A stretch of DNA of 27,404 nucleotides from a virus. The stretch spans positions 1 through 27,404 of IMG/VR virus record IMGVR_UViG_3300034092_001682; one strand, written 5' to 3'. The notes below the pieces were generated by a model. The model was not told the origin of the DNA. It did not search any database and saw only the letters and a list, made by a program, of their open reading frames with translations. Below are positions 1,113 to 13,063 of the stretch, piece after piece (the first letter of the stretch is position 1; the number at the start of each line of letters is the position of its first letter). A program made the translations under genes and the position numbers.

Positions 1113-3281
1113 TTACCCATTATTTTGCCTTTTTGCCACTTTGTAGGCTCTCATTGTGCGACCATTTACGCGCAAAAGTTTTTGCTCAAAGCCAAAATTT
1201 TTAAGTTCAAGGCCGAGTTTTTTCGTGTCAAAAATTCGCTGGTTGCTACAATTCTCGAGATAAATCTTTATTTCTGTGTTACTTAAATATGCCGAATAAT
1301 CGCTATTTTGTGGTATATATAAAAATTGGTTAATTAATTCGGCCTCAAAATTAATCGCATTAAAATCACTACTATTTTCTGCAAGTTGTATAATATCCTC
1401 GCTGCTCAGGTGCCAATCGAACCCGCTTTGATACAGGTCGTAGAAGGCCATAAATAGGGCCGTTTTATCAATTGCATTGTAGGCGGTGTGATTGATCCCT
1501 AGCACATTGATAGGCAAAATTCGGCGGTTGCCTGTGGGATCTGAGATTAAACCGAGGTCGTTCGTTGTACCTGCCAAAACTGCCAAGCGCTTGAGATCTC
1601 TGTGAGTGCGGCCATAAGGCAGGCGGATGCTAAAGGACGCCTTACTTGTTAACTCTTTAAACCGCTTAGCCTCCAGTTTGCTCTTACCCCCAAACTCATC
1701 GTCCATTATTATCAATTTTTTGGTCAGTAGTATATCGTCATCCTTACCGCCGTCCAACTTTGACTCGGCGTAGTAATTTGCCAGCGGTTTGGGTAGCAAT
1801 CGCCTAAAAAACTCAGTTTTACCCGTATTTTGGCGCTCGCCTGCTAGCACTAGGACTAATGGGGAGGTATGGCCGTAAACGCTTGCAACCATACCGCAAC
1901 CCCAGTGCGTTAAATATTTCTCTACGTTTGGCGTGCTTGTTTCAATAGTTGCCGCTAGATCACGAATCAACTCTGGGCCTCTTTGCACTGACTGATTTGC
2001 GTTAATAAATTCCTCAAAAGGATTGTAGTAGCGCGTCAATTCCGAGTAAATCACCCTACAAAAAAACTCAAAGCTTATCTTATTGTCTGTTACCTCTGAG
2101 AAACGCAGATACATAGTATTTAGGGCCATATCGTCCAAAATTTTGGGCCTGCCGTTCAATAATACAGTGCAATCCTCAATATCTGCAGTTATTGTATTGT
2201 AGCGCAGTTGGTGGTTGTTAGATAGGTATAGTTGGCAAAGGCTTACAGGCGTCTGCCCACTAAGCTGCAGGTTTACATTGGCAGAGTATACCGCCGCCGC
2301 CGTTTCTGTTGCTTTGTCAACGTCCAAGCCAGTTAAGCGCGCAATCTCTACAACCGACTCCTGCCCCCTGCCCTGCTTTTTTGCCATTTTTGCAATATTC
2401 TCCAATTTTATTGCCTGCTGGCTTTTAAGCTCAACGCCTGCCTGCTTGGCTAAGTAGTAAAACGTGGCAATTCCCACCTTGCTCTGGCCTGTATCTCGTA
2501 GGCAGTAGTTATATTGCCTGTCGGCTTTATTATGGTCGTATTTGTTATTTTGTGCGCTTACAGCGTGGAAATACTCGCGGCCTCTCTCTCCGAACTCGGA
2601 AGCTAGTGCAAATCCGATGCTAAGGTAGTTGGAATAAGCGCCCTCTGTTAAATCATACCCGCCGCGACAAATCCTGTCTATTAATTCCTCGAACTCGTTA
2701 CCAGTGAGCACAGTATTAACGACTTTGGGCTTTGCGGCTTTTTTGGGGTACTCCTTAAAAGTTTTGCTTTCGGGATTGTGGTAGAGCAGCGGATCATAAG
2801 ACAAAAAGCGCAGGCGGCTCACATTTTTACAACTCGCGTCAATTAGTTGGGTGTAGTTTTTAAAATAGTACGATTTTAACCCCTCAAAAGCTGCAAGGTG
2901 TTGCTCTGGCTCAATCTTAACCAATGCGGCCAAGCCGTTGCCGCTGACTGATAACAGGGCGGCGTAGGTGTACGGATCGCGCTCTAGTTCGCGCTTCAAT
3001 TGGGCCACATCCTCGACAGCGTCAAAATCAATACAAATTAGCCCTGAGTGTTGGGTGAGGTTTGCATTGGATACGTTCGCTTTAAACGTCCCGCTTATGG
3101 TTACAGCAGGAATCTTTATTTTTTCCGCCGCCTGCTCATCTTTGGAAAGCGAGCGGGTATTTCTGTACGCCTCAATTTGTGGTAAGTACTGGCCTGATCG
3201 GACTAAAGCAAAGTAATCGGCAATCGTGATAGTGTGGTGCTTGTCACTCTGCCGTATGTTTGGCAGAAAGGTTATTTGCAT
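1113..3281 (-). CDS. VirE/BT4734-like primase-helicase
   Basis: 722-residue replication protein with three recognisable parts. Residues 1-180 resemble the BT4734-like/VirE_N domain, an archaeo-eukaryotic primase relative: IDFD (84-87) as acidic catalytic pair, SGNG (113-116) and SRLRF (155-159). Residues about 195-285 resemble PriCT-2, with GGYDLTEGAYSNYLSIGFALA. Residues about 455-650 are a VirE/D5-like superfamily 3 helicase: Walker A GERQNTGKT (481-489), Walker B LIIMDDE (523-529), sensor TTN (572-574) and GNRR (584-587). The C-terminus looks like a small winged-helix domain. It probably primes and unwinds the phage origin, which lies immediately downstream. The ATG at 3281 overlaps the preceding 58-residue gene by 10 bases, and the gene belongs to the long early operon. 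Such proteins are common in Bacteroidota phages and mobile elements. Confidence 0.92.
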   Translation of the reverse strand: MQITFLPNIRQSDKHHTITIADYFALVRSGQYLPQIEAYRNTRSLSKDEQAAEKIKIPAVTISGTFKANVSNANLTQHSGLICIDFDAVEDVAQLKRELERDPYTYAALLSVSGNGLAALVKIEPEQHLAAFEGLKSYYFKNYTQLIDASCKNVSRLRFLSYDPLLYHNPESKTFKEYPKKAAKPKVVNTVLTGNEFEELIDRICRGGYDLTEGAYSNYLSIGFALASEFGERGREYFHAVSAQNNKYDHNKADRQYNYCLRDTGQSKVGIATFYYLAKQAGVELKSQQAIKLENIAKMAKKQGRGQESVVEIARLTGLDVDKATETAAAVYSANVNLQLSGQTPVSLCQLYLSNNHQLRYNTITADIEDCTVLLNGRPKILDDMALNTMYLRFSEVTDNKISFEFFCRVIYSELTRYYNPFEEFINANQSVQRGPELIRDLAATIETSTPNVEKYLTHWGCGMVASVYGHTSPLVLVLAGERQNTGKTEFFRRLLPKPLANYYAESKLDGGKDDDILLTKKLIIMDDEFGGKSKLEAKRFKELTSKASFSIRLPYGRTHRDLKRLAVLAGTTNDLGLISDPTGNRRILPINVLGINHTAYNAIDKTALFMAFYDLYQSGFDWHLSSEDIIQLAENSSDFNAINFEAELINQFLYIPQNSDYSAYLSNTEIKIYLENCSNQRIFDTKKLGLELKNFGFEQKLLRVNGRTMRAYKVAKRQNNG

Positions 3282-3448: not shown

Positions 3449-3647
3449 TTGATCCCTCCTTTAACGCATAAGTTACCTCAATACCAAAAGCGTTGCGCCC
3501 CAGCGTTGTATCTTTAAAAGCTTTTTTCATAGTTTTAACCCATTCCGCCTGAGGTATTGAAATGCCAGCAATAAACTCCTGTATTTCGGTTGTATTATAA
3601 CTGCGGTCGGTGTGTTCTATTTCGATTGTGATAATAAATGTTTTCAT
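3441..3647 (-). CDS. Small hypothetical protein, 68 residues
   Basis: 68-residue protein starting MKTFIITIEIEHTD and ending ALKEGSNE, with alternating hydrophobic strands at both ends. I do not recognise a family. The start overlaps the helicase stop as ATGA, which implies translational coupling. Its last codons (AAG GAG GGA TCA) also form the strong Shine-Dalgarno sequence of the next gene. No signal peptide or membrane segment is seen. Its place between the helicase and the primase-helicase suggests a replication accessory role, but this is context only. Confidence 0.75.
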   Translation of the reverse strand: MKTFIITIEIEHTDRSYNTTEIQEFIAGISIPQAEWVKTMKKAFKDTTLGRNAFGIEVTYALKEGSNE

Positions 3648-5035
3648 AATTTAATTAAATAATTTTTAACCGGTTGCCCCTCGGCAAATTCTCTCATACG
3701 TCTGTTTGTGTAGCCTTCGGTATAGCCTTTGCCCCTCCAAAACTTTTGCAGCTCGCGATAGTTGGCAAAGTATAGCACCCGCTCAATAAATGCCTGTTTA
3801 TACCCCTTGCGGCTTTTCAATTCCCACAGATCCGCAGGACTTTTGGCAATGTCGTACAGATAGCGGCCGTTGAGCTTATCGTAGGCCATTTCTTGCAGTA
3901 CGCCCTCAGTTGCCTGTTTTGCCTCTGTTTGGAATATCTCACCGCAAAACTCGCAAAAGCGGGCGGAGGCATACAATACAGCACTACAACAGGGGCAATC
4001 TTTAACAGGTGCCACGCCCGTACCCTTTTTCTCTACACCCTCAAAGGCTTTGCTCCAGTCCCTCGGCTCCTGCCAAAATCCCAAGCGGTGCACATTCTCG
4101 CCAAAGTCCAATATCGTGAACTCTTGCTTACCTTGCGCAGGCCTAGATCCTCGCCCCACCATTTGAAGCCACAGCGCAACGGATTGCGTAGCACGGTTAA
4201 CAACTACCACCTCAATATCTGGGCAGTCGAAGCCAGTGGTAGCAATTCCGCAATTAACTAAAATCCCGTCTTTGCTTGCGATAAAGTCGGCCATAATCTT
4301 TGCCCTGAGTTCTGTGGGTTGTTCGCTGTGCACTTGGTAAACTCTCTCCAGCCCTAGCTTTAGCATAAACTGCAACCACGTAGCTTTTGTGGCTTCTATG
4401 TTTACGCAGAAAACTATCGCCTTTTTATCGGCCCACTTTCTGCAAAATTCCTGCACAACTCCCTCGTAAACTTTCGGGCGGTTGAAAGCGTCATCCAATC
4501 CCTGCGCTGTAAATTCGCCCATTCTGCTAGCAATCTTTGACGTGTCCACTGGATGCATTGCGTAGGTGATAGGATTGCATAGATAGCCCTGCGCGATCAG
4601 TTCGCCAATCCCAACCGAGTTAATTAGTTTGCCATAGCTTTGGGCCATCGGTGGCTTACTTACTGGCGTTGCAGTTGCGCCGATCACAAAGCCGTCAAAT
4701 CCCTCCAGAATTTTGCGAAAATTGCCAATGTGGGCCTCATCAATCACAAGCAAATCGTAACTGCTCAAGTTCACAACCCCGCGCTTTATTTGATTGTTTA
4801 GCGTCTCAACCATCAGTATGTCGCAGCGGTTTAGTTTGCCCGCTTGGCTCAACAACTCGCGCCTGTGGGTTACAATTGCCACCCTGCGCCCCTTTTCCAA
4901 TACCCTGCGCACAATCTCCGAAAATACAACCGTCTTGCCCGCTCCAGTTGGAAGGCATAGCACAACCCGCTTACTTTCCTTAAAAGCCCCGCGGATCTCA
5001 TCGACAGCAGTCAATTGGTAGGGCCTTAATTGCAT
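3644..5035 (-). CDS. SF2 DEAD/DEAH-type helicase with C-terminal zinc motif
   Basis: 463-residue superfamily 2 helicase. Motif Q-like RPYQ is at 4-7, Walker A PTGAGKT at 29-35, Walker B DEAH at 99-102, motif III GATATP at 119-124 and motif VI QMVGRGSR at 291-298. After the two RecA-like domains comes a CPCC (347-350) and CEFC (361-364) pair that should bind zinc, then a basic tail. This is the phage helicase type often found beside primases and recombination genes, related to RadD/YejH-like proteins. It probably opens duplex DNA or remodels replication forks in the cytoplasm. The start overlaps the DnaA-like gene by 10 bases and the stop overlaps the next gene as ATGA. The family is certain; whether it is the replicative helicase is not, because the primase also carries a helicase domain. 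Confidence 0.93.
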   Translation of the reverse strand: MQLRPYQLTAVDEIRGAFKESKRVVLCLPTGAGKTVVFSEIVRRVLEKGRRVAIVTHRRELLSQAGKLNRCDILMVETLNNQIKRGVVNLSSYDLLVIDEAHIGNFRKILEGFDGFVIGATATPVSKPPMAQSYGKLINSVGIGELIAQGYLCNPITYAMHPVDTSKIASRMGEFTAQGLDDAFNRPKVYEGVVQEFCRKWADKKAIVFCVNIEATKATWLQFMLKLGLERVYQVHSEQPTELRAKIMADFIASKDGILVNCGIATTGFDCPDIEVVVVNRATQSVALWLQMVGRGSRPAQGKQEFTILDFGENVHRLGFWQEPRDWSKAFEGVEKKGTGVAPVKDCPCCSAVLYASARFCEFCGEIFQTEAKQATEGVLQEMAYDKLNGRYLYDIAKSPADLWELKSRKGYKQAFIERVLYFANYRELQKFWRGKGYTEGYTNRRMREFAEGQPVKNYLIKL

Positions 5036-5469
5036 ATCCCGAGCAGCTCCTTCACTGTGTTGTAAATCTTCTGCACTGACTTATCGTATTCCAAAAAATC
5101 CCGCATCCTGCTATAACTGTTGATTGCTGTTGAGTGATCACGCCCCAACCTGCGGCCAATCTCCGAATATCTCAGGGCGTAGTGCTGGCGCAGAATGTAA
5201 ACCAACATATGACGCGCGTCTTTGATATCTCCCTCTCTGGATGTTGAGAGCAACTGCGCAGGGGTTACATCGCAGGCAATGCAAACAGATTGCATAACCT
5301 TGGCGAAATCATCCATCTTGCTGGTAAATTTCACCTGTGGGCGCAGCAGTTCGTTTTTCAACCTTACCACCTCAGCCTCATATTTGGAAGTCATTTGCAG
5401 GATGCGCATTTGCAGCTCCTTATTCTCCCTGCGTGCTCTGCTGTATAGTTGTAAATAATCTGTAATCAT
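5026..5469 (-). CDS. DnaA domain IV-like DNA-binding protein
   Basis: 147-residue protein without an ATPase domain. Residues about 10-45 form a probable coiled coil. Residues about 75-125 match the C-terminal DNA-binding domain of DnaA (Bac_DnaA_C): SREGDIKDARHMLVY, then EIGRRLGRDHSTAI with the signature GRDHSTA at 109-115, which in DnaA contacts the DnaA box. Such stand-alone domains could mark an origin, recruit the adjacent helicase or primase, or compete with host DnaA. The only perfect DnaA box I found (7279-7287) lies inside the promoter of this same operon, which suggests autoregulation. The start at 5469 lies inside the preceding gene (50-base overlap), and the end overlaps the helicase start. 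The fold assignment is strong; the role is inference. Confidence 0.85.
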   Translation of the reverse strand: MITDYLQLYSRARRENKELQMRILQMTSKYEAEVVRLKNELLRPQVKFTSKMDDFAKVMQSVCIACDVTPAQLLSTSREGDIKDARHMLVYILRQHYALRYSEIGRRLGRDHSTAINSYSRMRDFLEYDKSVQKIYNTVKELLGICN

Positions 5470-6856: not shown

Positions 6857-7031
6857 TATCGTTTTTTATTACAAGGTTTAAAACATACAAAGCGGCCACG
6901 CAAAGCATAAAAGAAAAGCGAGCGCTCTCTGGCCACGTCAACGGGTTAAATTGCCCCGATACAAATACAAAGCCTGCATAGGTAATCAGCAGGGCCTGCG
7001 CAAAGCAGAGCACAGTGGTGCGGATGCTCAT
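6846..7031 (-). CDS. Small two-helix membrane protein
   Basis: 61-residue protein with two hydrophobic segments: about 5-27 (TTVLCFAQALLITYAGFVFVSG) and about 39-55 (FSFMLCVAALYVLNLVI). A short polar tail follows. It has the size and shape of a small inner-membrane protein. A second holin is formally possible, but it lies in the early operon far from the lysis genes, so an exclusion or membrane-modifying role is at least as likely. It has a strong GGGAGGGG before the ATG, and its start overlaps the previous stop as ATGA. No family recognised. Confidence 0.7.
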   Translation of the reverse strand: MSIRTTVLCFAQALLITYAGFVFVSGQFNPLTWPESARFSFMLCVAALYVLNLVIKNDNDN

Positions 7032-7243
7032 TTGTCGCCCCTCCCTCTGTACATTCTGCGCTGATAAAGCATTTGCGTGAACTCATCAAACTCGGGGCGA
7101 AATTCATCGCGTTCAAATTTGTACGGCTCGGCTTCAGGGGTTTCAATTCTGCGCTTTTTGTTGCGGCGAATTACGTGAGCGCAGTAGGCCACCGCAATGG
7201 TAGCAGGCGCTAAAATGATCGGATAAATAATATCTAAACTCAT
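7028..7243 (-). CDS. First gene of the early operon: small membrane-anchored protein
   Basis: 71-residue protein: an N-terminal membrane segment (about 4-24, DIIYPIILAPATIAVAYCAHV), a basic stop-transfer patch (RRNKKRR), then an acidic and basic cytoplasmic tail. The frame is open upstream to 7288, but the promoter (-7 box at 7272-7265) lies inside that extension, so the ATG at 7243 is the true start. The leader is only about 17-20 bases and contains the segment UAGCACCACAUU. This segment is complementary to the candidate small RNA just upstream. Translation of this first gene may thus be RNA-controlled, and the coupled overlaps could pass that control to the following genes. No known family. 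Confidence 0.72.
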   Translation of the reverse strand: MSLDIIYPIILAPATIAVAYCAHVIRRNKKRRIETPEAEPYKFERDEFRPEFDEFTQMLYQRRMYRGRGDK

Positions 7244-7264
7244 AAATGTGGTGCTATGTGGTTG

Positions 7265-7294
7265 CAAATATAAAGGCATTATCCACAAAACAAA
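7265..7294 (-). promoter_or_regulatory. Early-operon promoter with embedded DnaA box
   Basis: Minus strand: -33 TTTG at 7294-7291, an 18-base spacer, and -7 TATATTTG at 7272-7265, matching the Bacteroidota promoter (TTTG, TAnnTTTG). A perfect DnaA box TTATCCACA occupies 7279-7287 on the plus strand, inside the spacer. Host DnaA, or the phage DnaA domain IV-like protein made from this operon, could bind there and block or stimulate transcription. Confidence 0.75.
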
Positions 7295-7303
7295 ATAAAT
7301 TTG

Positions 7304-7336
7304 AAAAAAAAATGCCCCGAGCCGAAACCCGAGGCA
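7304..7336 (-). terminator. Rho-independent terminator after the repressor gene
   Basis: Minus strand: TGCCTCGGG (7336-7328), loop TTTCGG, CTCGGGGCA (7321-7313): a 9-bp stem with two G-U pairs, followed directly by nine T (7312-7304). It ends leftward transcription from the helix-turn-helix gene just before the early promoter. Confidence 0.9.
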
Positions 7337-7353
7337 GTTAGCACCACACTAAC
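7305..7353 (-). ncRNA. Candidate ~50-nt regulatory RNA
   Basis: A -7 box TATATTTG lies at 7365-7358, right at the end of the repressor gene. A transcript starting about 7353 would form a small hairpin (GTTAG, 7-base loop, CTAAC at 7353-7337) and end at the strong terminator. The segment AGUGUGGUGCUA (7350-7339) can pair over 12 bases (one G-U) with UAGCACCACAUU in the leader of the early gene starting at 7243. No good -33 box is seen: the nearest TTG is 25 bases upstream. It could instead be the 3' tail of the repressor mRNA acting the same way. Confidence 0.45.
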
Positions 7354-7366
7354 GGCGCAAATATAG

Positions 7367-7543
7367 TTATAACTCCGCCAGTTTCTCCTGCAATTTACGC
7401 AGCGTTTCGAGTGTCTTAGGTTCCTTTCTCGCCCAGTTGCTCAATACGCACCTATTTACGCCTGCCATTGCGCAGAGCTTTGTCAAGTTTACGCCCTTTT
7501 GAATTGCCTGTATTTTTAACTCGGTTACAATATTTTTATCCAT
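7367..7543 (-). CDS. Cro/CI-type helix-turn-helix regulator
   Basis: 58-residue protein. Residues about 19-45 form a helix-turn-helix of the Cro/C1 type (NLTKLCAMAGVNRCVLSNWAR), and it ends in a leucine-rich helix (ETLRKLQEKLAEL) that may dimerise. An in-frame TTG at 7552 exists, but the ATG at 7543 lies 6 bases after a -7 box and is preferred. The gene is divergent from the recE-like gene with overlapping promoters and has its own terminator. It is therefore the likely genetic switch controlling the recombination operon, itself and possibly the early operon. There is no integrase in the window, so a classical lysogeny repressor is uncertain; a Cro-like timing regulator fits as well. Confidence 0.83.
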   Translation of the reverse strand: MDKNIVTELKIQAIQKGVNLTKLCAMAGVNRCVLSNWARKEPKTLETLRKLQEKLAEL

Positions 7544-7581
7544 TTGGTGCAAATTTATAACATTTTGTTTATTTTTGCAAC
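7543..7581. promoter_or_regulatory. Overlapping divergent promoters of repressor and recE-like gene
   Basis: Leftward: -33 GTTG at 7581-7578, a 20-base spacer, -7 TAAATTTG at 7557-7550, then ATG at 7543. Rightward: TTTG at 7543-7546, a 23-base spacer, -7 TATTTTTG at 7570-7577, then ATG at 7585. Each -33 box lies just beyond the -7 box of the other promoter, so the two polymerase sites exclude each other. An imperfect inverted repeat (GGTGCAAA at 7546-7553, facing TTTTGCAACC ending at 7582) is a possible operator. Both mRNAs would be nearly leaderless. Confidence 0.7.
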
Positions 7582-7584
7582 CTT

Positions 7585-8349
7585 ATGACGTACCACACCG
7601 ACACAACTCGCATATCAAAAAGCGGGCTAGACCTAATTAACCGCGCTCCTGCACTTTATTACGAGCGCTATCTAAACCCAACAGCCGAACCGCAAAAAGA
7701 AACGCCTGCCCTGATCATTGGCTCGGCAGTTCACTGCGCAGTTTTGGAGCCGTCCGAATTTGGCAAACGTTATGCTATTGCCCCACGATTTGACAAACGA
7801 ACTAAAGAGGGAAAGGCAAATTTTGAGGCGTTTGTTGCAGATGCAGGTGAGCGCATTGTAATTGACGCCGAAACCGCTACAGTATGCGAGCGCATAATGG
7901 GCTCAGTCCACAAGCATAAGCCAGCCGCCTATCTTTTAAAGCAAGGCGTTGCTGAGCAGCCAATTTTTTGGACTGATAGACAAATAGAGGTAGATTGTAA
8001 GGCAAAGCCCGACTTTATCACTGACGGGGGTATAATTGTAGACCTTAAAACTACAGAGGATGCTAGCCCCACAGGCTTTGCTCGCAGCGTAAAAAAATAC
8101 CGTTACGACGTACAGGCTGCATTTTACAGCGATGGCTACGAGGAAAGCACAGGATCACCTTGCAGCGGCTTTATGTTTATCGCAGTAGAAAAAACAGCCC
8201 CTTATCTTTGCGCTGTTTACTTTATCGGCGCGGACGATTTAGCCAACGCTCGCCAGCGTTACAGAGAAAATTTACTTACCTACAAGCAAAGCAAACAGAC
8301 AGGGCTTTGGTATGGTTACAGCGAAATAATTACAAAAATCAACTTATAA
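7585..8349 (+). CDS. RecE-like exonuclease (PD-(D/E)XK, DUF3799 type)
   Basis: 254-residue nuclease. It matches the C-terminal nuclease domain of RecE/exodeoxyribonuclease VIII-like phage proteins: SGLDLINRAPALYYERYL near the start, GSAVHCAVLEP with His50, KPDF with Asp143, IVDLKTT with Asp153 and Lys155, and YDVQAAFY (174-181). It should resect double-stranded ends to leave 3' single strands for the annealing protein encoded next. It is the first gene of the only rightward operon, its stop is one base before the recT-like start, and its ATG is 7 bases after a -7 box. Together the pair forms a phage recombination system for repair, circularisation or concatemer formation. Confidence in family is high. 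Confidence 0.92.
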   Translation: MTYHTDTTRISKSGLDLINRAPALYYERYLNPTAEPQKETPALIIGSAVHCAVLEPSEFGKRYAIAPRFDKRTKEGKANFEAFVADAGERIVIDAETATVCERIMGSVHKHKPAAYLLKQGVAEQPIFWTDRQIEVDCKAKPDFITDGGIIVDLKTTEDASPTGFARSVKKYRYDVQAAFYSDGYEESTGSPCSGFMFIAVEKTAPYLCAVYFIGADDLANARQRYRENLLTYKQSKQTGLWYGYSEIITKINL

Positions 8350-8350
8350 G

Positions 8351-8941
8351 ATGACAGAAATAACAAAAATCACCGAAACCCCTGCGCCGCTTTCTAACTT
8401 TGAAACAGCGCAACGCCAAGCAAAAGCCCTGAGCGCCTCGGATCTAGTACCTGCTCAATACAAGGGCAACGTCGCTAATACTTTGGTAGCCTTAGAGATT
8501 GCAAACCGCATCGGAGCCTCGCCTCTTATGGTTATGCAAAATTTGCACATAATCCACGGACGGCCGAGCTGGTCTAGTACCTTTGTAATTGCAGCAATTA
8601 ACGGAAGCGGAAAGTTTACCGCTCTGCGCTTTGTTGGCGATTTGGCCAAAGGTATTAAAGCGGTTGCAACAGAAAAAGCCACAGGCGAGACAATAGAAGG
8701 CCCTACCGTTACTATGGAGATGGCAAACGCTGAGGGATGGGTGAGCAAGGCAGGCAGTAAATGGAAAACAATGCCCGAGCTAATGATGCGCTATCGTGCC
8801 GCCGCTTTCTTTGGACGCCTCTACGCCCCCGAGATTACTATGGGTATGCACAGCGTCGAGGAGGTTGTAGATATTACAACACACCAGAGCGAAGTGGTGC
8901 AGGATATCAACGCGAAAATTTTAACCGAGGGCTTGGACTAA
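8351..8941 (+). CDS. RecT-like single-strand annealing protein
   Basis: 196-residue protein directly downstream of the RecE-like exonuclease. The core AKALSASDLVPAQYKGNVANTLVALEIANRIGASPLMVMQNLHIIHGRPSWSS-type region (about 24-76) is typical of phage recombinases of the RecT/Red-beta group: N-terminal helix, NTLVALEIA, then HGRPSW. FVIAAINGSGKF and an RYRAAAFFGRLYAPE helix follow. It should coat resected single strands and anneal complementary ends. No Walker motif is seen, so it is not a Sak4/RecA type. It overlaps the lysin gene convergently by 21 bases, and its transcript should end at the hairpin at 8970-9002. Its pairing with an exonuclease supports the call more than any single motif. 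Confidence 0.75.
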   Translation: MTEITKITETPAPLSNFETAQRQAKALSASDLVPAQYKGNVANTLVALEIANRIGASPLMVMQNLHIIHGRPSWSSTFVIAAINGSGKFTALRFVGDLAKGIKAVATEKATGETIEGPTVTMEMANAEGWVSKAGSKWKTMPELMMRYRAAAFFGRLYAPEITMGMHSVEEVVDITTHQSEVVQDINAKILTEGLD

Positions 8942-11368: not shown

Positions 11369-13063
11369 TTAAATTGTGGTTAGTGAGGCAAGTTCTGCGT
11401 TTGTTAGGCGGGTTTTGAAAAGGACGGCTTCGTTAATTTGATATTGACTTACATAATTACTTGATGCTTGATAATCCAAATATAAATCAGCCATAGCACT
11501 AACAGTTCCGCTTGTGTCTGTCCCTATTTGTATGCCGTTAATATATAATACAAAATCATTATTTTTATAAGCAGCCGCAATTTTGACACGATTGCCTAAT
11601 GTATAAAAATTATTTGATGTGCTTATATTGCATTGAACGGAACTTCCATCAAAAATCACATATCTAATTGCGCTAATTGACCCAAGAAAAACAATATATT
11701 GTTGCGCTTGATTAATATTACCTCCACTTGTAAAAATAGACAAAGGGATTGCTTCGCTAAATGTGTTATAATTATTTACAATACAATCAACAAACATAAC
11801 CCCCTCCGTCTGCCCAATCAACGAACTAATGCCCGTCTTAAAACACGCATCCGCAACCCTTGTTGCACTTGCTGATGTGGTGGGGATGTAGGATGTGGGG
11901 TATGATGATTGCTCGGCTTGTGCGCCCCAAATATAAATGCCTTTACTGCCGTCACCCGCAAAAATAAAACTTGTACCATTTTCCGATAAAGCAATAATGC
12001 TGTAAATAGTACTCCAATTAGAAGTACCCGACGAAACTACACACCTATACCAACCATTGCCGACGCTTTGTATTGATGCGGTTAATGTGCTTGTATTTTG
12101 AGAAATAGTACCATTTGACAAATTAAAAAATGCCCCTTGACTTGCTGAGCCATTGTCATAACCTAAAAAAATGTAATTGTATTCGCCCGCCTTTGCATAA
12201 ATACTTAATGTTGCGGGTGAAGTTGAAGTAATTGTATTATCAAAAACACTATGGTCGCTATTGTCTGTATTTGCAATTGCCTTATCCGCGTTCTGCGTTC
12301 CGTCTGGACTTGTAATTGCATTTGCAGTAATTGAAGTGCGCAATTTTGCCCAAGTTGATTGTGAAAAATCTTCCGAATTTCTTAAAACATTCGTACTTTG
12401 CTTTTCAAGGAGTAACGATGGACACCCGCCCCCGCCATTTTGATAAGTTAATCTTGGTACATTTAAGCGGTCGGTAGTGGGGAAGTAGGGTTTGGCGGTG
12501 CTTCCAACATTGATTTGAAATCCCCAAATGTATACAATCTCGCCACTCGTTGCACTTTCGGGTGCTTCGACTCCGACATTGACATTTCCGTTTATATTTG
12601 CGGTAATGGTTAATTGTTGCCATTCTCCCGTCATTACGGTAAAAACTGCAGAGCTACTAATACGAATAGAACAATTTTTGCCTATTGCCGTTCCCGTTGC
12701 TTTTACATAACAAGTTGCAGTATAAACTTGGTTTGTTCCATTAAAAGATTGGTAAATATATGGGTCGGAATCAGTTGCCTCAAATTTTGCGGCGGTTGTA
12801 GTTCCGTTAGGGGCGACTGCAAAATTATCGGTAAAAGTTCCGTTTTTTGGTGTATAAATTGCGTTTGTGAATTGCTCCGAATAGGTAGCCAAATTCCACG
12901 GGCAAACCTCCACCAACCCCGCACTATTTATTCGTGTTCCGTTGGATGCACGGGTGAAACTTAAATCGCCGCTTCCGTCGGACGGCACCACACTATAGAC
13001 CGTGTCCTCTTTATACCCCGAAGGTATAACTACGAGACTCGCCTTATTTAATAAATCGCTCAT
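11369..13063 (-). CDS. Tail fibre / receptor-binding protein with tandem carbohydrate-binding-like modules and LamG-like end
   Basis: 564-residue adhesin-like protein. The N-terminus has the phage-fibre block LSFTRASNGTRINSAGLVEV (34-53). Two similar modules follow: about 60-197, from YSEQFTN to YIWGFQINVG...FPTT, and about 229-396, from NSEDFSQ to YIWGAQAEQ...YIPTT. Between them is the CPSLLLEKQSTNVL block (214-227) known from phage fibres. The last ~140 residues (about 420-564, GVMFVDCIV...AAAYKNNDFVLYINGIQIGTDT...FKTRLTNAEL) look like a laminin-G/concanavalin-type lectin fold. It probably binds a surface glycan. It lies 3 bases after the 51-residue gene and is more AT-rich than neighbouring tail genes. 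Modules and position make a fibre likely; the ligand is unknown. Confidence 0.8.
   Translation of the reverse strand: MSDLLNKASLVVIPSGYKEDTVYSVVPSDGSGDLSFTRASNGTRINSAGLVEVCPWNLATYSEQFTNAIYTPKNGTFTDNFAVAPNGTTTAAKFEATDSDPYIYQSFNGTNQVYTATCYVKATGTAIGKNCSIRISSSAVFTVMTGEWQQLTITANINGNVNVGVEAPESATSGEIVYIWGFQINVGSTAKPYFPTTDRLNVPRLTYQNGGGGCPSLLLEKQSTNVLRNSEDFSQSTWAKLRTSITANAITSPDGTQNADKAIANTDNSDHSVFDNTITSTSPATLSIYAKAGEYNYIFLGYDNGSASQGAFFNLSNGTISQNTSTLTASIQSVGNGWYRCVVSSGTSNWSTIYSIIALSENGTSFIFAGDGSKGIYIWGAQAEQSSYPTSYIPTTSASATRVADACFKTGISSLIGQTEGVMFVDCIVNNYNTFSEAIPLSIFTSGGNINQAQQYIVFLGSISAIRYVIFDGSSVQCNISTSNNFYTLGNRVKIAAAYKNNDFVLYINGIQIGTDTSGTVSAMADLYLDYQASSNYVSQYQINEAVLFKTRLTNAELASLTTI

Follow-up and report, generated by a model that had tools for sequence, protein, structure and literature searches.

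A possible two-layer early switch in a Bacteroidota-type phage: a putative DnaA-type site in the early promoter and a predicted multi-target antisense RNA

The dnaA gene is autoregulated, and DnaA also acts at the phage lambda promoter pR, where it activates from boxes located downstream of the promoter. Phage antisense RNAs include P1 c4 and P4 CI RNA. P22 sar and lambda OOP are further examples (PMC12197685). Phage promoters carrying sites for the host cell-cycle regulator CtrA have been described under the term 'lytic deferment' (PMC9437464); in the phages of that survey, DnaA sites showed no asymmetry of position.

The locus analyzed here resembles each of these systems in part. With dnaA autoregulation and lambda pR it would share a DnaA-type site at the promoter of a replication operon. 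In contrast to lambda pR, the box lies between the -33 and -7 elements, and repression would therefore be expected. What it has in common with CtrA-controlled promoters is a host-regulator-type site within a phage promoter, here of the DnaA type and single. The 9-mer is the high-affinity box of E. coli, found as one promoter site and not as an origin cluster. Like sar, OOP, c4 and CI RNA, the RNA predicted here is a short, terminator-ended product of a control region that would pair with phage mRNA, as several of the known RNAs do at translation starts. These, however, have mainly one target each and are mostly encoded opposite it, whereas the present RNA is predicted to act on multiple targets in trans. 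Literature searches found no comparable phage RNA in the host phylum. DnaA-type control of phage promoters and phage antisense RNAs are thus known kinds; new here would be the box within the spacer, the domain IV gene in the same operon and the use of one seed for several trans targets.

The window, by which we mean the whole stretch of DNA analyzed, comes from a virus and forms one linear contig of 27,404 bases, whose helicase has its nearest relatives in Flavobacterium and Cellulophaga phages. From its sequence, we take positions 7243-7598 to be the region from which a Bacteroidota-type phage controls its early genes. This region is carried by 35 contigs including the window, among which there are 20 distinct sequences of the leftward early promoter, P_L. 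Leftward of P_L come small genes, the DnaA-like gene (5026-5469), the helicase, the primase-helicase and nucleases. The principal genes and the rightward and divergent promoters are as follows.

1113-3281, minus strand: primase-helicase (BT4734-like N-terminal part, PriCT-2, VapE-like)
3644-5035, minus strand: DEAD/ResIII-type helicase
5026-5469, minus strand: 147-aa protein, predicted to consist of a stand-alone DnaA domain IV preceded by a long helix
6846-7031, minus strand: second gene of the leftward operon
7028-7243, minus strand: first gene of the leftward early operon, 71 aa
7367-7543, minus strand: Cro/CI-type HTH regulator, 58 aa, ATG at 7543, with weak Pfam and PHROG matches
7557-7550, minus strand: TAAATTTG of the divergent HTH promoter
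7570-7577, plus strand: -7 box TATTTTTG of the rightward promoter P_R, overlapping the divergent HTH promoter
7585-8349, plus strand: exonuclease VIII-like gene (DUF3799), read from P_R
8351-8941, plus strand: RecT-like annealing protein, directly after the exonuclease

No integrase was detected among the scanned proteins, a subset of those of a possibly incomplete contig. In the collection of GTDB genomes searched, neither the pattern of the small RNA nor an alignment of the DnaA-like protein found a match, so that no host was indicated. The mRNA of the HTH gene would be nearly leaderless, its predicted start point at 7545 lying 2 nt before the ATG (7541-7557, minus strand); with a predicted leader of 3 nt, the same would hold for the exonuclease mRNA.

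Bacteroidota promoters follow the consensus TTTG / TAnnTTTG (PMC6847099), and the flavobacterial -7 box covers -12 to -5 (PMC9723704). P_L is of this housekeeping type, with TTTG, TAnnTTTG and the usual distance between -33 and -7. Its spacer is 18 nt long in the window and 18-19 nt across the 35 contigs, and its transcription start is predicted at about 7260. The elements of P_L are listed below.

7265-7272, minus strand: -7 box TATATTTG, reading CAAATATA on the plus strand
7279-7287, plus strand: DnaA-type box TTATCCACA, in the P_L spacer at about -19 to -27
7291-7294, minus strand: -33 element TTTG, CAAA on the plus strand

The initial annotation of this DNA had singled out TTATCCACA as the only perfect DnaA box of the window and had placed it between the -33 and -7 boxes of the early promoter. 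Both the claim and the position are borne out: there is one exact copy, within the TTTG-N18-TATATTTG spacer. A single exact 9-mer has little meaning on its own, and it is conservation that lends credibility to the site. An exact copy is expected 0.15 times, and at least one was present in 14 of 100 shuffles. When one mismatch is allowed, sites number 6 against 5.6 expected, and thus form no cluster, and the relaxed pattern TTWTNCACA occurs twice against an expectation of 3.6. The box may then be a chance match in an AT-rich promoter spacer, with no binding function; that one-mismatch matches are as common as in shuffles fits this view, and so does the outcome of a search for box avoidance elsewhere in the genomes, where a signal that was strong against dinucleotide shuffles was lost once permuted patterns served as the control (rank 68 of 400) and was discarded. 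We nevertheless consider a chance match rather improbable, given that seven of the nine box columns are conserved over 20 distinct promoters while the adjacent columns vary.

TTWTNCACA fits 18 of the 20 distinct promoters from the 35 contigs, variation being confined to positions 3 and 5. The exact TTATCCACA is found in three, TTTTCCACA in nine, TTTTACACA in three, TTATGCACA in two and TTTTGCACA in one; the other two promoters have lost one further position (TTTTGAACA and TTTTACACG). Over the 20 promoters, the box contains 1.7-2.0 bits per column except at columns 3 and 5, and the columns from the box to the -7 box only 0.5-1.0 bits. This contrast between the box columns and their neighbors is our chief argument that the site is read at all. 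Natural DnaA boxes are 9-mers with at most two mismatches to the perfect box (PMC4285127); with the E. coli box as reference, the window site is exact and 18 of the 20 distinct promoters stay within two mismatches. The initial annotation had proposed that its reading would fall if closely related phages with an intact promoter had lost the box. On this point the answer is divided: the exact 9-mer is gone from most relatives, and the relaxed pattern persists.

In more distant phages, whose DnaA-like protein is 35% identical, there is no such promoter box. A conserved TTATACACA in distant phages was considered as support and dropped, since it sits in coding sequence. No instance of the box separated from the DnaA-like gene was found, as none of the contigs checked was both sufficiently long and devoid of that gene. 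On balance, we predict 7279-7287 to be a genuine DnaA-type site only tentatively, at a little less than an even chance; its binder may be the DnaA of the host, the phage's own DnaA-like protein or the HTH regulator encoded next to it.

This last candidate leads to another reading of the same bases, which also form part of a possible operator.

7257-7287, no strand assigned: possible operator dyad TGTGG (7257-7261) ... CCACA (7283-7287), weak, with five-base arms

The dyad spans the P_L -7 box, and the DnaA-type box supplies one of its arms. We may hypothesize that 7279-7287 is a half-operator of the 58-aa HTH regulator, which would repress P_L across the -7 box, and that the likeness to a DnaA box is coincidental. 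A repressor gene directly upstream of P_L, between divergent promoters, is indeed the classical arrangement, and clade A has the arms TGTGG/CCACA, some members of clade B TGTGCAAA...TTTGCACA. However, the motif is missing from the promoter of the HTH gene itself, although such a regulator would be expected to control its own gene, and the dyad has short arms whose spacing is unequal between clades. Furthermore, position 5 varies in clade B although the HTH protein is unchanged, and the variable columns are precisely the two lenient columns of the DnaA box. We regard the half-operator as a serious rival, although less likely than not.

As to the DnaA-like gene, the initial annotation had described an operon product with a DnaA-type DNA-binding domain, a GRDHSTA signature and no ATPase, and this description holds. 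The protein matches Pfam Bac_DnaA_C with 57.5 bits (cut-off 31.5; 1.4e-15) and contains no AAA+ domain. Its AlphaFold model (pLDDT 89) was compared with two DnaA-box complexes, 1J1V, which is E. coli domain IV on a DnaA box, and 3pvp, a M. tuberculosis complex, giving TM scores of 0.92 and 0.82, respectively; the phage fold superposes on domain IV of E. coli DnaA (1J1V), and the GRDHST signature is common to both. Residues R78, R86 and D111-H112-S113-T114 are invariant in 15 relatives, down to 34% identity, and their counterparts in an alignment with known DnaA proteins are E. coli R399, R407 and D433-H434-T435-T436. Several of these E. coli residues reportedly contact the box, a finding ascribed to Fujikawa et al. 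2003. The model argues for a true DnaA domain IV fold in the 147-aa product, with the DNA-contact signature retained. The protein is not a full DnaA initiator: in contrast to E. coli DnaA, it has no AAA+ ATPase domain, and only a long N-terminal helix precedes domain IV. In its minor-groove loop, most basic residues are lost (REGDI versus RSRSV in E. coli DnaA). Stand-alone DnaA domain IV proteins also occur in Pelagibacter phages, where they are annotated merely as DnaA-like or hypothetical.

An AT-rich stretch at 7288-7312 had been taken, in the same annotation, to allow a secondary origin. We reject this idea: the stretch is made of the T-tract of an intrinsic terminator and the -33 region and is no unwinding element, and the presence of a single box further speaks against an oriC-like origin. 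What stands of the original reading is a conserved, degenerate box and, as modeled, a true domain IV fold.

What the sequence shows directly is the promoter boxes, the conservation of the DnaA-type box and, for the RNA described below, hairpins with compensatory changes and complementarity placed in the sense orientation only; that these elements are expressed or bound, and in which direction they would regulate, we infer. In a first layer, P_L would drive the leftward replication operon, and a DnaA-family protein on the spacer box would block the DNA used by RNA polymerase; we think that repression is the likeliest effect of such binding. The binder could be the phage domain IV protein, which would amount to autoregulation, or host DnaA. 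The phage protein is slightly favored because the site's own operon encodes it.

A second element, overlooked in the initial annotation, lies beside the site: a conserved predicted RNA that we regard as a better-supported regulator than the box.

7305-7353, minus strand: predicted small RNA of about 49 nt, comprising hairpin 1, a terminator hairpin and a U tract
7313-7336, minus strand: intrinsic terminator (stem 7336-7313), common to the small RNA and the HTH gene
7358-7365, minus strand: small-RNA -7 box TATATTTG, TAnnTTTG in all relatives with variable nn

The T-tract of the terminator abuts P_L. When placed by the flavobacterial box spacing of -12 to -5 (PMC9723704), the start of the RNA falls at about 7353, five bases past the -7 box, which is the first base of hairpin 1; a -33 element is not evident in this promoter. 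Hairpin 1 has the form GUUAG-UGUGGUG-CUAAC and exposes GUGGU in its loop, and the 50-nt stretch folds with -20.8 kcal/mol (z = -4.7). The hairpin (UUAGUGUGGUGCUAA) is identical in 35 of 35 aligned contigs, while the flanking end of the HTH gene and the leader diverge. All 15 base pairs are kept in the 11 distinct small-RNA sequences, with compensatory changes at two pairs, both from G-C to A-U: one separates the clades and lies at the base of hairpin 1, the other is in the terminator of contig L017. The small-RNA pattern is present in 34 viral contigs besides the window. A covariance model detected no small RNA in more distant phages, and Rfam has no family match in the window at gathering score.

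The hairpin is located between the HTH stop codon and the HTH terminator, and might be just the 3' UTR end of the HTH mRNA, conserved for stability or termination and devoid of targets. However, a TAnnTTTG box with variable nn immediately precedes it and sets the start at the first base of the stem, and an invariant loop is no requirement of a terminator. Furthermore, in contig L015 an insertion parts the small RNA from the HTH gene, and both the -7 box and the RNA sequence, hairpin included, are unchanged. A plain 3' UTR is therefore quite unlikely in our view. The L015 insertion (about 4694-4850, between the HTH gene and the small-RNA promoter) ends in a sequence resembling the 3' half of a tRNA (GGTTCGAATCC). 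ARAGORN finds no tRNA beside the small RNA there, and this candidate was dropped; a past recombination event at a tRNA gene may have left the insertion behind.

Returning to the RNA as a regulator in its own right, sequences complementary to its loop region are observed at the starts of early genes of the window.

3230-3241, minus strand: predicted pairing site AGCACCACACTA / AGCACCACACUA, primase codons 14-18, 12-bp perfect
7015-7021, minus strand: predicted pairing site GCACCAC, close to where the operon's second gene starts
7247-7256, minus strand: predicted pairing site UAGCACCACA, ending 3 nt before the AUG in the 5' leader of the first P_L gene; 10 perfect base pairs, about -19 kcal/mol
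7591-7598, plus strand: predicted pairing site UACCACAC, exonuclease codons 3-5

In the sister clade B, sites occur at the starts of the exonuclease gene (ACCACACUAA), a 120-aa gene (CACCACACUA), a 65-aa gene and whichever gene comes first after P_L. Predicted targets in this clade include even the DnaA-like gene, with ACCACACUAA upstream of its start; the clade B primase has no pairing site. We tested the targets by counting gene families, not related sequences. Matches of at least 9 nt at gene starts involve two families in clade A and three in clade B, and in each clade 500 shuffled seeds all fell short of the observed count; the same test gave no match (0) in the antisense orientation. Predicted duplexes range from -14 to -22 kcal/mol. 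An energy test with shuffled seeds backs the same genes, the result for clade A being modest (4 families versus 1.05, with a shuffle maximum of 5). Among invariant two-codon residues of 31 exonuclease genes, 7 of 56 use a single codon, including Tyr3 and His4, whose codons fall inside the pairing site. Features of an antisense RNA are thus present, namely complementarity to start regions beyond chance and, except that a -33 element is not evident, an own promoter (-7 box) followed by an intrinsic terminator.

The recurrent ACCACA / TGTGGT elements may also be viewed as DNA operators just past three promoter starts, the inverted repeat at 7338-7352 being the strongest, and at P_L, P_R and the small-RNA promoter they do lie no more than about 20 bp away from the predicted start. 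Yet they are also seen at interior gene starts (DnaA-like, 120-aa and 65-aa genes in clade B, primase in clade A), and their orientation always matches RNA pairing, never the antisense direction. Nor would operators account for the terminator after the hairpin or for the compensatory changes. Different targets use different stretches of one 15-mer (UAGCACCACA versus ACCACACUAA), as pairing predicts, and for this reason we favor base pairing over a fixed protein site; DNA operators appear improbable.

Three observations touch on these sites. An 11-nt match to the target sequence at 12985-12995 (plus strand) is antisense to a tail gene and was set aside as a chance occurrence. Contig L011 has an extra gene after P_L (4437-4876), with an ACCACA element at its start and at the start of the next gene. 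The exonucleases of the window and of contig L014 share only 67% identity, whereas the L014 DnaA-like protein, helicase and primase are 85-97% identical to their window counterparts; this difference suggests mosaic exchange at the control region, in which the pairing site was kept.

In the second layer, the RNA of about 49 nt would be made from its own TAnnTTTG box and end at the terminator beside P_L. Its hairpin loop GUGGU, together with complementary flanks, would pair with ACCACA-type sites at early mRNA starts, and pairing would lower the translation of early replication and recombination genes. We hold it to be somewhat probable, from comparative evidence, that a trans-acting antisense RNA of this kind exists and acts. 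The combined proposal of a two-layer switch, with a DnaA-type site in P_L and a multi-target antisense RNA, seems to us very nearly evenly balanced. Such a switch might serve lysogeny, a delay or the control of copy number. A bolder version, in which one trans-acting RNA of about 49 nt with a single invariant seed runs the whole early programme by acting on several replication and recombination mRNAs, in sister phages also on that of the DnaA-like gene, and P_L is read by a DnaA-type protein, would make an RNA-based switch tied to replication state; this we deem unlikely.

If true, the first layer would provide a testable case of a phage early promoter read by a DnaA-type protein, and the second a rare instance of a phage antisense RNA with several targets, in a phylum where translation does without Shine-Dalgarno sequences. 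How such an RNA would block translation starts in a phylum without Shine-Dalgarno use is then a question in itself. As for stand-alone domain IV proteins, the box in the promoter of an operon encoding one of them offers a concrete first binding test.
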